Positions 1 to 59,511 of a stretch of DNA of 64,000 bases are shown here, piece by piece. The position numbers and the translations under genes were made by a program. The stretch spans positions 1-64,000 of the forward strand of contig NZ_BMMS01000005.1 in NCBI RefSeq assembly GCF_014646055.1. Direction: 5' to 3'. The DNA is from Wenjunlia tyrosinilytica (lineage in GTDB: Bacteria; Actinomycetota; Actinomycetes; Streptomycetales; Streptomycetaceae). Position 1 is the first letter of the stretch, and each line of letters opens with the position of its first letter. The notes below the pieces were generated by a model. That model saw nothing but the letters and a program-made list of their open reading frames with translations. It had not been told where the DNA came from and made no database searches.

Positions 1-1560
1 ACCACCGTCCCACTCAACGCCAGCGGCCAGGCCTGCACCACCACAACCCTGACCACCGGCACCGTCACCGCCACCTACAACGGTGAGGACGCCTGCTTCC
101 TCGGATCAACAGGGACCACCACCGTCACCGTCAACGAGGCATCCACCACCACCTCGGTCACGGCCACACCGAACCCGTCCGTCTGCGGACAGGCCGTCAC
201 CATCTGCGCCACCGTGACCGCCAGCCCCCCAGGATCCGGCACACCCACCGGAACAGTCACCTTCACCGGACCCGGCGGACTCAACACCACCGTCCCACTC
301 AACGCCAGCGGCCAGGCCTGCACCACCACCACAACCCTGACCACCGGCACCGTCACCGCCACCTACAACGGTGAGGACGCCTGCTTCCTCGGCTCGGTCG
401 GCACCACCACCGTCACCGTCAACCCGACGTCGACGACCACCTCGGTGCTCGTGACCCCGAACCCGTCGGTGTGCGGGCAGACCGTGACCGTGTGCGCCAC
501 CGTCGTGGCGAACGCGCCGGGATCGGGGACTCCGACCGGAACGGTGACCTTCACCGGACCCGGCGGACTCAACACCACCGTCCCACTCAACGCCAGCGGC
601 CAGGCCTGCACCACCACCACAACCCTGACCACCGGAACCGTCACCGCCACCTACAACGGCGCCGCGTGCTTCCTCGCCTCCACCGGCACAGCGGCCGTGA
701 GCGTCACCCCGGCATCGACCACGACCACGGTCACCGCGACGCCGAACCCGTCGTCGTGCGGGCAGACGGTCACCGTCTGCGCCACCGTCGTGGCCAACCC
801 GCCGGGATCCGGCACACCCACCGGAACGGTCACCTTCACCGGACCCGGCGGACTCAACACCACCGTGGCGCTCAACGCCAGCGGCCAGGCGTGCTTCACC
901 ACGTCCACGCTGACGTCGGGGACAGTGACCGCGACCTACAACGGTGCCAGTTGCTTCCTGGGATCCGCCGGCACGGTCACCGTCACCGTCACCCCGGGTG
1001 CGACCACGACGACAGTCACCGCGACACCGAACCCGTCGTCGTGCGGGCAGACGGTCACCGTCTGCGCCACGGTCGTCGCGAACACTCCTGGCTCGGGGAC
1101 CCCGACCGGAACGGTGACCTTCACCGGACCCGGCGGACTCAACACCACCGTCCCACTCAACGCCAGCGGCCAGGCCTGCACCACCACCACAACCCTCGCC
1201 ACCGGGACGATCACGGCCACCTACAACGGTGCCCCGTGCTTCATGGGGTCCTCCGGCACCCGGACGGTCACCGTCAACAAGGCGTCGACCACCACGACAG
1301 TGACCGTCACGCCGAACCCGTCGACCTGCGGGCAGACCGTGACCGTGTGCGCCACCGTCGTGGCGAACGCGCCGGGATCGGGGACACCGACCGGGACGGT
1401 GACCTTCACCGGACCCGGCGGACTCAACACCACCGTCCCACTCAACGCCAGCGGCCAGGCGTGCTTCACCAGTAGCACCCTGGTCACGGGAGTCATCAAC
1501 GCCACCTACAGTGGCAGCACCTGCTTCCTGGGTTCCTTCGGCACCCGCGTCGTCACCGTC
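1..1560 (+). repeat. Tandem 285-288 bp coding repeats
   Basis: About 5.5 consecutive units encode the Ig-like domains. The central part of each unit (for example 259-350, 547-640, 1123-1200) is nearly identical at the DNA level, including synonymous positions. The unit edges differ. This mosaic pattern suggests recent homogenisation by recombination rather than only protein-level selection. Confidence 0.9.
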
Positions 1561-39455: not shown

Positions 39456-39505
39456 GACAGGAGTGTGCCATGCCCGGCCGGGCTGCCCTGGGCCAGGAGT
39501 GGCGA

Positions 39506-39538
39506 GAGCCCCGGCCGGAGGGGGATTGGCCGGGGCTC
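39506..39538 (-). terminator. Hairpin between the repeat array and the GNAT gene
   Basis: An 11-bp perfect stem (39506-39516 with 39528-39538) with an 11-nt loop would stop leftward transcripts that read through the array from the CDF gene. Confidence 0.6.
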
Positions 39539-39692
39539 GCCTCCCGTCTGGGGGGACGGGATGGGGGGCCAGTGCAGAGCGGGCTCCCGACTCTGCGACT
39601 GAGCTGCGCCTGCCCGGGTTCCCCAGCCGCAAACGGGGGGTCCGCAAAGATTTTCAGGGACCGCCCGCGACGCCCCCACGCACATCCACCAC

Positions 39693-40400
39693 GCCTTCAC
39701 TTCGCGCTCCGCGCGACCGGCCCTCCAAGGCGACCGTGCACGTCCCCCAGCACCGCGCAGCGGCAGGTCAGTCGGCCCCCAGGCGGCTGACCTCGCGTCC
39801 AACGCATTCACTTCGCGCTCCGCACACAGCCGGCCCTCCAAGGCGACCGCGCATGTCCCCCAGCACCGCACAGCGGCAGGTCAGTCGGCCCGCAGGCGGC
39901 TGACCTCGCGGTCCAGCGCTTTCCGCTCGCGCCCCACGCACAGCCAGCCCTGCGAGGCGACCGTGCACTCCCCCAGCACCGCGCAGCGGCCCCCACCCGC
40001 ACCCGCGGGAAGCGGGCCCGGTCAGTCGGCCCGCAGGCGATCGACTCCGCGGCCCAGCGCATTCACTTCGCGCTCCGCACACAGCCGGCCCTCAGAGGCG
40101 ACCGTGCACGTCCCCAGCACCGCGCAGCGGCGGGTCAGTCGGCCCCCAGGCGGCTGACCTCGCGTCCAACGCATTCACTTCGCGCTCCGCACACAGCCGG
40201 CCCTCCAAGGCGACCGCGCATGTCCCCCAGCACCGCACAGCGGCAGGTCAGTCGGCCCGCAGGCGGCTGACCTCGCGGTCCAGCGCTTTCCGCTCGCGCT
40301 CCACGCACAGCCGGCCCTCCAAGGCGACCGCGCATGTCCCCCAGCACCGCACAGCGGCAGGTCAGTCGGCCCGCAGGCGGCTGACCTCGCGGTCCAGCGC
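39693..40400 (-). repeat. Array of ~113-bp repeats duplicating the 3' end of the CDF gene
   Basis: Copies of the gene-end motif (reading TCAGTCGGCCCGCAGGCGGC on the plus strand) begin at 39767, 39880, 40021, 40134, 40247 and 40361. Spacings are 113, 141, 113, 113 and 114 bp, and a partial copy starts near 39693. The copy at 40361 is the real end of the CDF gene and carries its stop codon; the others reproduce the stop and the last ~12 codons outside the gene. The rest of the unit, such as CCTCCAAGGCGACCG, is intergenic. Each unit has a GGTCAG/CTGACC inverted repeat. The 141-bp spacing contains a ~30-bp insertion. Confidence 0.93.
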
Positions 40401-41405
40401 CTTCCCTTCGTGCATCGAGCGCACGCGGTCCTCGTCCGAGGCGTCCGTGATGTCCAGGAAGATCTCCTGCGCCTGCGGCCACCGCTCCCGGAGCTCACCC
40501 TTGATCCTCACCGCCACTTCCTCGACCTCCTCGCTGTCGAGGCCGCCCACCAGGTCCACCCGGGCGGCGATCAGCACGGCGTCCGTACCGAGGCGCATGG
40601 TGAGCAGGGCGGTGACGGTGTCGATCTCCGGCTGCGACGTGAGGAAGTCCCGGACGGCCCGTTGGAGGACCGGGTCGGCGGCCTCGCCGATCAGGACCTT
40701 GCGGGCGTCCCTCCCGAGCGTGTACGCGACATAGACGAGCAGGACACCGATGGCGATCGACGCCCATGCCTCCCACACGACGCTGCCGGTCGCCATGTGC
40801 AGGCCCATGCCGACGATGGCGAGGGTCACACCCAGGCACGCGGTGCTGTCCTCGGCCAGCACCGTGCGCAGTGCCGGGTCCTGCGCGGCGCGGATCTCCG
40901 CCGACATGCTCCGTCCCGTCCGGCGTGCCCTTTCGCGCACCTGCCACAGCGCCTTGACCAGCGAGGCTCCCTCGGCCATCAGTGCCACGAACAGCACGCA
41001 CAGGCCCACGACATAGCCGTTGTGGGACTCCGACTCGTGCGAGCGCAGCGCCTCGATCCCCTGGAAGAAGGAGAAGCATCCGCCCATGACGAAGATGCCG
41101 ACCGCGGCGAGCAGCGACCAGAAGAACCGCTCCTTGCCGTAGCCGAAGGGGTGCTCGGCGTCGGGGGCGCGCTTGCTGCGCTTGACGGCGGCGAGGAGGA
41201 AGATCTCATTGAGGCTGTCGGCCACGGAATGGGCGGCTTCGGACAGCAGGGCGGGAGACCCCGCGAAGAGGCCTCCCACGGCCTTGGCCGCGGCGATGAC
41301 CAGGTTCGCGCCGAGCGCCACCAGCACGGTGGCACGTGTCTTGGAGTCCTCGCCCGCCGGGCTCTGGACGCCCTGGTCCCGGTCTTCGCTCATCGAATGG
41401 TCCAT
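40362..41405 (-). CDS. Cation diffusion facilitator (CDF) efflux protein
   Basis: The protein is 347 aa. It has six TM helices; helix 2 carries the metal site SEAAHSVADSLNEI (H-x3-D), and helix 5 carries EDSTACLGVTLA (D). The C-terminal cytoplasmic domain (LLTMRLGTDAVLIAARVDL, RIKGELRERWPQAQEIFLDI) is the ferredoxin-like CDF fold. Zn2+, Fe2+ or Mn2+ export is probable; specificity is not readable. Its last residues ALDREVSRLRAD are part of the 113-bp array. The ATG at 41405 has AAGG 8 nt upstream; ATG 41393 is an alternative. Upstream, the open frame continues for about 4 kb only as a shadow. Confidence 0.88.
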   Translation of the reverse strand: MDHSMSEDRDQGVQSPAGEDSKTRATVLVALGANLVIAAAKAVGGLFAGSPALLSEAAHSVADSLNEIFLLAAVKRSKRAPDAEHPFGYGKERFFWSLLAAVGIFVMGGCFSFFQGIEALRSHESESHNGYVVGLCVLFVALMAEGASLVKALWQVRERARRTGRSMSAEIRAAQDPALRTVLAEDSTACLGVTLAIVGMGLHMATGSVVWEAWASIAIGVLLVYVAYTLGRDARKVLIGEAADPVLQRAVRDFLTSQPEIDTVTALLTMRLGTDAVLIAARVDLVGGLDSEEVEEVAVRIKGELRERWPQAQEIFLDITDASDEDRVRSMHEGKALDREVSRLRAD

Positions 41406-51816: not shown

Positions 51817-51885
51817 GGTCACCTGAAAGACCGGTCACGTGAAAGAAGAGTCACCTGGAAGGAGAGTCACCTGAAAGAAGGGTCA
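51817..51885. repeat. 15-16 bp tandem repeats at the end of the Ada-AlkA gene
   Basis: About four copies of GGTCACCTGAAAGAA-like units run leftward into the gene. The last unit supplies the TCA complement of its TGA stop (51883-51885). Confidence 0.8.
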
Positions 51886-53547
51886 CACCACGTTCTCGGC
51901 GGAAGGGCTCCCGGCGGAAGGGCTCTCCGGGCGAACGCTCGCTGTGCGACGGCTCTCTGCGCGAACTCTTACTGGGCGAAGACTCCGGGCGGGAAGGCTC
52001 TCGGTGGGAAGGGTTTCGGCGGGAAGGCTCTCGGCGGGAAGGCCTTCGGTGGGAAGCCGGTTGATGGCGTGGTCGCCGGTGGCCCACAGGTACTGCACCG
52101 CGTAGGCGCGCCAGGGCCGCCAGGCGGCGGCGTGGCTGGTGAGTGCCGCGGGGGTGCTCGGCAGGCCGAGGCCCCGGGCGGCCAGACGCACTCCGAGATC
52201 GGTGGGAATGAAGGCGTCCGGATCGCCCAGGGCCCGCATCGCGATGATCTCGGCGGTCCATGGCCCCATGCCCGGTAGGCCGTCGAGTGCGGCGCGGGCA
52301 CGCTGCCAGTCTCCGCCGACCCCGAGGTCCAGGCCGCCGTCGGCGAGCGCGGCGACGAGCGTGGTCAAGGTGGTACGCCGCGTCCTGGGCATGGCAAGTG
52401 CCTGCGGGGCCAGTCCGGCGAGCGCCTCGGGTGTGGGGAACAGATGGGTGAGGCCGCCGTCCGGGTCGGTGACCGGCTCGCCATGGGCCGCCACCAGCCG
52501 GGCGGCGAGGGTACGGGCGGCGGCGGTGGAGACCTGCTGGCCGAGCACGGCGCGGACGGCGAACTCGGCTCCGTCCACGGTCCTCGGCACCCGCCGCCCG
52601 GGGCTCGCGGCGACGTGCGGCGTCAGCGACGGGTCCAGGCTCAGCTGCTCGTCCACGGCTTGGGGGTCGGCGTCGAGGTCGAGCATCCAGCGGCACCGGC
52701 TGATGGCGATGGACAGATCGCGGTGGTCGGTCAGGGCGAGCCGGCAGGCGATGTGATCGGCCATCGGCCGCACGGTGGCGGTGCCATGTCCGTGCGGTAG
52801 GCGCAGCGTGCGGCGGTAGGCGCCGTCACGCCACTCCTCGACGCCGGGAACCCCGGTGGCCGCGAGGTGGCCGAAGAGACTGCCGGGGCACAGGGGTTGC
52901 CGGAACGGCAGCCGCAGCGAGAGGGCTCCGTGTGGGGCGGTGGCGGGCGCGGCGGTGGTCGCGGGGGCCGTGCTCGGCCTGCCGCGGGCGACTCGGGCGC
53001 GCAGTTCGGTCGGGGACAGCGCGAAGACCTCGCGCACGGTCTCGTTGAATGTGCGGATGCTGGAGAAGCCGGAGGCGAACGCCACATCGCCCATCGGCAG
53101 GGTGCTCGTCTCGATCAGCACACGAGCGGTCCTTGCCCGCTGGGCACGGGCGAGCGCGAGGGGCCCGGCACCCAGCTCGGCCAGGAGCCGGCGTTCGATC
53201 TGACGGGGGCTGCAGCCGAGTTGTGCGGCGAGCCCGGGCACGCCCTCACGGTCCACCACGCCGTCGGCGATCAGGCGCATGGCACGGGCGACGAGGTCGG
53301 CGCGGGCGTTCCACTGCGGAGAGCCGGGTACGGCGTCGGGGCGGCATCGCTTGCACGCCCGGAAGCCCGCCTGCTCCGCGGCGGCGGCGCTCGGGTAGAA
53401 CGTCATGTTCCGCGGTTCGGGCGGCGCTGCGGGGCAACTGGGGCGGCAGTAGACGCGTGTGGTCAGCACGGCGGTGAAGAACCACCCGTCGAATCGGGCG
53501 TCCTTGGACTGCACGGCCCGCACGCAGCGATCGAAGTCGGTGTGCAC
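51883..53547 (-). CDS. alkA: Ada-type HTH plus AlkA DNA-3-methyladenine glycosylase fusion
   Basis: The protein is 554 aa. Order: Ada metal-binding domain (VYCRPSC, FRACKRC, four Cys ligands), AraC-type HTH (GVPGLAAQLGCSPRQIERRLLAELG), AlkA N-terminal domain, then HhH-GPD glycosylase (LPGMGPWTAEIIAMRALGDPDAFIPTDLG; Asp in TDLG is catalytic; the quoted motif is cited in two parts). It excises alkylated bases and probably activates adaptive genes. The GTG at 53547 fits the family start VHTDFDRCV. The last ~60 residues are an Arg/Ser/Pro-rich tail with PAESL-type repeats outside the glycosylase fold. Confidence 0.88.
   Translation of the reverse strand: MHTDFDRCVRAVQSKDARFDGWFFTAVLTTRVYCRPSCPAAPPEPRNMTFYPSAAAAEQAGFRACKRCRPDAVPGSPQWNARADLVARAMRLIADGVVDREGVPGLAAQLGCSPRQIERRLLAELGAGPLALARAQRARTARVLIETSTLPMGDVAFASGFSSIRTFNETVREVFALSPTELRARVARGRPSTAPATTAAPATAPHGALSLRLPFRQPLCPGSLFGHLAATGVPGVEEWRDGAYRRTLRLPHGHGTATVRPMADHIACRLALTDHRDLSIAISRCRWMLDLDADPQAVDEQLSLDPSLTPHVAASPGRRVPRTVDGAEFAVRAVLGQQVSTAAARTLAARLVAAHGEPVTDPDGGLTHLFPTPEALAGLAPQALAMPRTRRTTLTTLVAALADGGLDLGVGGDWQRARAALDGLPGMGPWTAEIIAMRALGDPDAFIPTDLGVRLAARGLGLPSTPAALTSHAAAWRPWRAYAVQYLWATGDHAINRLPTEGLPAESLPAETLPTESLPARSLRPVRVRAESRRTASVRPESPSAGSPSAENVV
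51991..52050 (-). repeat. Coding 15-bp minisatellite x4 in the glycosylase tail
   Basis: Units such as GGGAAGGCTCTCGGC occupy 51991-52005, 52006-52020, 52021-52035 and 52036-52050. On the coding strand they give the pentapeptides PTESL, PAETL, PAESL and PTEGL. Confidence 0.9.
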
Positions 53548-59350: not shown

Positions 59351-59511
59351 CCGATCCGTGATGAGGCCGATCCGTAAACCCGCCGATCCGTAAACCCGCC
59401 GGCCCGGATGCCGCCGGCCCGTGTGCCGCTCCGCAGTGCCGCCGATCCGTGCGCCGCCGATCCGTGCGCCGCCGGTCCGTGCGCCGCCGGTCCGCAATGC
59501 CGCCAAATGCG
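59351..59511. repeat. 15-16 bp tandem repeats between convergent genes
   Basis: Units such as GCCGCCGATCCGTGC and GATCCGTAAACCCGCC repeat with degeneracy across 160 bp, ending 12 nt before the deformylase stop. Confidence 0.85.

Follow-up and report, generated by a model that had tools for sequence, protein, structure and literature searches.

Duplicated att sites at the 3' ends of genes are copies of gene ends in which the stop codon is included. In Mycobacterium tuberculosis, a MIRU-VNTR array (mycobacterial interspersed repetitive unit, variable-number tandem repeat) occupies the rnc-fpg1 intergenic region; its length has been associated with expression of the gene that follows, species outside the tuberculosis complex lack it, and the MIRUs occupy 41 scattered places (PMC2734929). 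The tandem-repeat regions of Borgs start inside gene ends and consist of perfect, A-rich repeats, with example units of 18–21 nt (PMC9879509). A literature search found such tandem-repeat precedents but no described array of gene ends bearing a stop codon. Here, an array of this kind is reported for the soil-type actinomycete Wenjunlia tyrosinilytica, in a window of 64,000 nucleotides (i.e. positions 1 to 64,000 of contig NZ_BMMS01000005.1, assembly GCF_014646055.1), where copies of the end of a CDF cation-efflux gene follow that gene in tandem. The array is very probably a lineage-specific, non-coding, VNTR-like bacterial minisatellite that arose by tandem duplication of the gene end and was partly homogenised by recombination.

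The CDF gene lies on the minus strand (41393-40362) and encodes a metal-ion exporter of 343 amino acids (Pfam PF01545, E 2.3e-40) with the C-terminus ...KALDREVSRLRAD, followed by a TGA stop codon. Tandem Repeats Finder (TRF) placed the array at 39691-40410 with a period of 114 bp, 6.1 copies and a score of 660, i.e. a head-to-tail tandem arrangement as in minisatellites and VNTRs, whose units are of roughly 10–100+ bp. Both TRF and an alignment of the units confirmed what a preliminary description of this DNA had claimed, namely five copies of the gene end and a partial unit downstream of the CDF gene. The five full units and the partial one are spaced at 114, 113, 113, 141 and 113 bp and adjoin directly, without DNA of any element in between. 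The 141-bp spacing had been noted earlier and stands, while the insertion responsible, first given as 30 bp, measures 28 bp. A chance origin of the array is excluded. The source and the units are as follows.

40365..40460, minus strand: end of the CDF gene (final ~32 codons), the source of the unit
40251..40364, minus strand: unit 1 (u1), 114 bp, starting with the CDF gene's own stop codon
40138..40250, minus strand: u2, 113 bp, lacking one base within the codons it copies (a 1-base deletion); identical to u5
40025..40137, minus strand: u3, 113 bp, the most diverged at the stop-codon hairpin
39884..40024, minus strand: u4, 141 bp, containing the 28-bp insertion
39992..40019, minus strand: the insertion in u4, 28 bp, with no second copy within the window
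39771..39883, minus strand: u5, 113 bp, with exactly the sequence of u2, 1-base deletion included
39691..39770, minus strand: u6, partial, lacking the stop-codon end

In the unit alignment, 1-base deletions were present in u2, u3, u4 and u5. A stop codon stands before each unit and the copies are not translated. The last 38 nt of u3 exhibited 78–82% identity to the other units.

The extent of the gene-derived part differs from that first proposed. Each unit had been described as repeating 12 codons, the remaining ~75 bp being intergenic; an alignment tested against shuffles showed instead that ~95 of the 113 bp are collinear with the end of the CDF gene and that ~18 bp represent 3' flank. The last 38 nt of the gene are 82–97% identical to the units, and the ~58 nt upstream of these are 67–81% identical to the gene in a gapped but collinear alignment. 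Among 5000 dinucleotide shuffles, those that did as well as the 3'-anchored alignment of this ~58-nt part numbered 1 (u1), 0 (u2), 0 (u3), 24 (u4) and 0 (u5); for u1, 8 of 4966 random segments of the window aligned equally well. The translation of u1 (...ERERKALDREVSR) contains ...ERERKALDREV..., which is near the RRERRxLDxAV tail of orthologs, and fits the C-terminal ortholog profile weakly; when the tail was kept constant and the upstream part shuffled 1000 times, 11 of the shuffles fitted equally well. These alignments suggest that the copies may preserve an older version of the CDF gene end.

Exact tracts gave signs of an exchange between units, as in minisatellites and VNTRs.

40133..40299, minus strand: 167-bp tract, repeated without a mismatch at 39766-39932, a distance of 367 bp; both places matched at 100% in the search of family genomes
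40306..40400, minus strand: 95-bp tract, identical to 40192-40286 and 39825-39919

The 95-bp tract comprises the last 39 nt of the gene (13 codons, stop included) and 56 nt downstream and matches two unit junctions at offsets of 114 and 481, the offset of the 167-bp tract being 367. Identity falls to background within about 20–40 bp on each side, and edges as sharp as these point to unequal crossing-over or gene conversion. Likewise, the identity over 167 bp would reflect a recent exchange or conversion. Units u2 and u5 are identical, yet their neighbours u1 and u4 exhibit only 89% identity in the middle part, in addition to the 28-bp insertion. Recombination at the array, as proposed in the preliminary description, is thus directly supported by these sharp-edged tracts, one of which takes in the last 39 nt of the gene. 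For the gene end itself, a partial exchange with the array, through unequal crossing-over or gene conversion, appears to be the simplest reading and is preferred because a recent simple duplication would leave the upstream part identical too and because selection on the gene cannot reach the non-coding copies.

The sharing of the gene's last 39 nt and 56 nt of flank with two unit junctions, next to gene sequence that is far more diverged just upstream, would also be expected of a contingency locus, in which exchange between array and gene swaps the last 12–13 codons of the transporter and so varies its C-terminus between cells or strains. This explanation is very unlikely: the C-termini of orthologs vary without any array, an intact copied frame is found in some units only (u2 and u5 carrying the 1-base deletion), and there is no evident need for an efflux pump to vary its tail. 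An array serving as an active reservoir, i.e. a small silent-cassette system from which gene conversion would overwrite the CDF gene's 3' flank and C-terminal codons, is similarly improbable.

The formation of a minisatellite from the gene end would have begun with one tandem duplication, by replication slippage or illegitimate exchange, which would leave two homologous stretches of ~113 bp. The copy number may then have grown through unequal crossing-over and block duplication, with a step of three units or 367 bp, after which the copies would drift as non-coding DNA while conversion homogenised parts of them. The CDF gene should still work, because its own stop codon precedes all copies and the C-terminal tail of the family is freely variable; the C-termini of CDF orthologs exhibited wide variation in both length and sequence. 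A function beyond that of a neutral repeat would not be needed to explain the array. As in known minisatellites and VNTRs, imperfect units of ~100 bp lie head to tail beside a gene; in contrast to these, the unit reproduces a gene end, stop codon included, in an array known from one genome.

Several points weigh against this explanation. A profile hidden Markov model of the ortholog C-terminus gave no significant match to the upstream part of the units alone, and the homology of that part rests on the DNA alignment because the match at the protein level is non-significant. We infer neutrality from a lack of evidence for function, and VNTRs are defined by a variability in copy number, whereas this array is known from one strain. 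In addition, the assembly is a draft of 172 contigs, and the size of the array may be wrong given exact tracts of up to 167 bp. Exact tracts of 95–167 bp may confuse short reads, and the array could on these grounds be an assembly artefact, with units inserted or miscounted by the assembler. Such an artefact is highly improbable, as the substitutions, 1-base deletions and 28-bp insertion that distinguish the units are not inventions of an assembler, and the array is located inside a contig of 302 kb.

The inverted repeat GGTCAG/CTGACC, previously assigned to each unit, has been lost from u3 but spans the stop codon of the gene itself and that of u1, u2, u4 and u5. Its presence in the gene and four of the five units, together with a 15-bp helix that can form mid-unit in several units, speaks for a chain of transcription terminators or of stabilisers of the mRNA 3' end, in which a hairpin at each copied stop codon would halt the polymerase or protect the CDF message. 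The structural tests favour an array without such a role. Neither the stop-codon hairpins (z −1.55 to +0.77), nor the full units (z −0.38 to +1.52), nor the whole array (z +0.62) folded better than shuffled sequences. Pair changes among the units were at the shuffled expectation, with no covariation detected; no Rfam family was matched within the array and no T-tract (i.e. U-tract) terminator-like site was found in it. The 15-bp helix was absent from the predicted folds of u2 and u5. A terminator chain, one of the functions suggested at the outset, is accordingly very unlikely, and an RNA element or terminator chain was rejected as a candidate on the folding, covariation, Rfam and terminator results; a strong pair of hairpins lies outside the array. 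The other suggested function, an array of binding sites for a protein, found no support either, the units being confined to one locus and absent from relatives and the palindrome being lost in u3.

The hairpin pair (39497-39562, minus strand) consists of two adjacent hairpins with C-rich loops, directly upstream of the next gene. Its folding z is −7.1 and it resembles 6C RNA, scoring 31.5 bits against a curated score of 47; a proper 6C RNA of the genome was found at another site (G000:C13:8371-8446, 47.6 bits). The pair is likely a terminator or leader element and is a better candidate for such a role than the array units. That gene shares the strand of the CDF gene and encodes a GNAT acetyltransferase (PF00583) with a start at ~39455, from which the match extends over the whole length. 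The array occupies most of the space between the two genes, since the GNAT gene begins at ~39455. By analogy with the rnc-fpg1 precedent, an influence of the array on this downstream gene is possible.

The distribution of the unit was examined at several levels. All unit matches in the 8.49-Mb genome fell within this single array, so that further copies elsewhere, which had been put forward as a check, were not found, and a dispersed or mobile repeat family was ruled out by the single locus. An array was found behind none of 108 other CDF loci (109 loci tested, this one included, with some representing the same species twice); 17-nt matches at 154-170 in this comparison are a trivial overlap of two test stretches. 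Among 394 other genomes of the family, no match to the unit reached a meaningful score, apart from short weak ones; these partial matches, of 42–47 bp in two genomes (G016 and G067), carry little weight over 395 genomes. In a scan of gene ends over 864 kb of this genome, i.e. about a tenth of it, the CDF gene was the only genuine match among 840 gene ends, and none of 649 gene ends matched in 547 kb of relatives. The other two matches of the former scan lay inside a separate 285-bp repeat at the start of the window (1-1471; units of ~285 bp, 5.1 copies and 83% matches by TRF, cut by the window start), which is probably a coding repeat protein. TRF also reported clusters of short tandem repeats of 15–16 bp at 51817-52056 and 59366-59494.

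Phage and plasmid collections contained no match to the unit, and an origin from a plasmid or phage was ruled out on this basis. Copies that include the gene end and stop codon, with near identity in this part, nonetheless resemble restored att sites, and the array could be read as an accretion of such sites, i.e. scars of a site-specific element that inserted at the gene's 3' end and restored the last codons and stop each time. This origin is extremely unlikely. The period is 113 bp and the units adjoin with no element DNA, homology covers nearly the whole unit and exceeds an att core, nothing similar occurs in phages or plasmids, and the genome's 15 phage-integrase matches all fall outside this 302-kb contig, in a search that did not cover serine integrases. 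Integrase scars were rejected as a candidate on the last result. Thus, unlike duplicated att sites, the array combines short, regular spacing and near-whole-unit homology with the lack of an integrase or inserted element.

Like the MIRU-VNTR array, the present one is actinobacterial and lineage-specific, and its tandem units follow a stop codon in intergenic DNA (PMC2734929). Unlike MIRUs, which have related units scattered over many loci, the unit is found at one place only and is derived from the adjacent gene (PMC2734929). The Borg repeats are likewise recently formed and independent, whereas the units here are imperfect, GC-rich and 113 bp in length (PMC9879509).

The sole other genome of the genus that was compared (G001) lacked a close ortholog of the CDF gene (best E 2.8e-47), whereas many genera more distant than this genome possessed one at E 1e-110 or better. 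In line with the proposed origin of the array, one ortholog from another genus (L043) contained an independent 23-bp tandem duplication across its stop codon (CGCCCGGGAGCAGGCGTGACGGC).

The array at the CDF locus is a product of an ordinary mechanism, i.e. tandem duplication followed by unequal exchange, at an unusual place, a gene end that includes the stop codon. We regard it as a curiosity in the evolution of genomes and not as a pointer to a new system. Its interest lies in a clear snapshot of the birth of a minisatellite from a gene end and of its shuffling by recombination, with the source gene still adjoining. If copy number varies between isolates, the array would also serve as a marker for strain typing.
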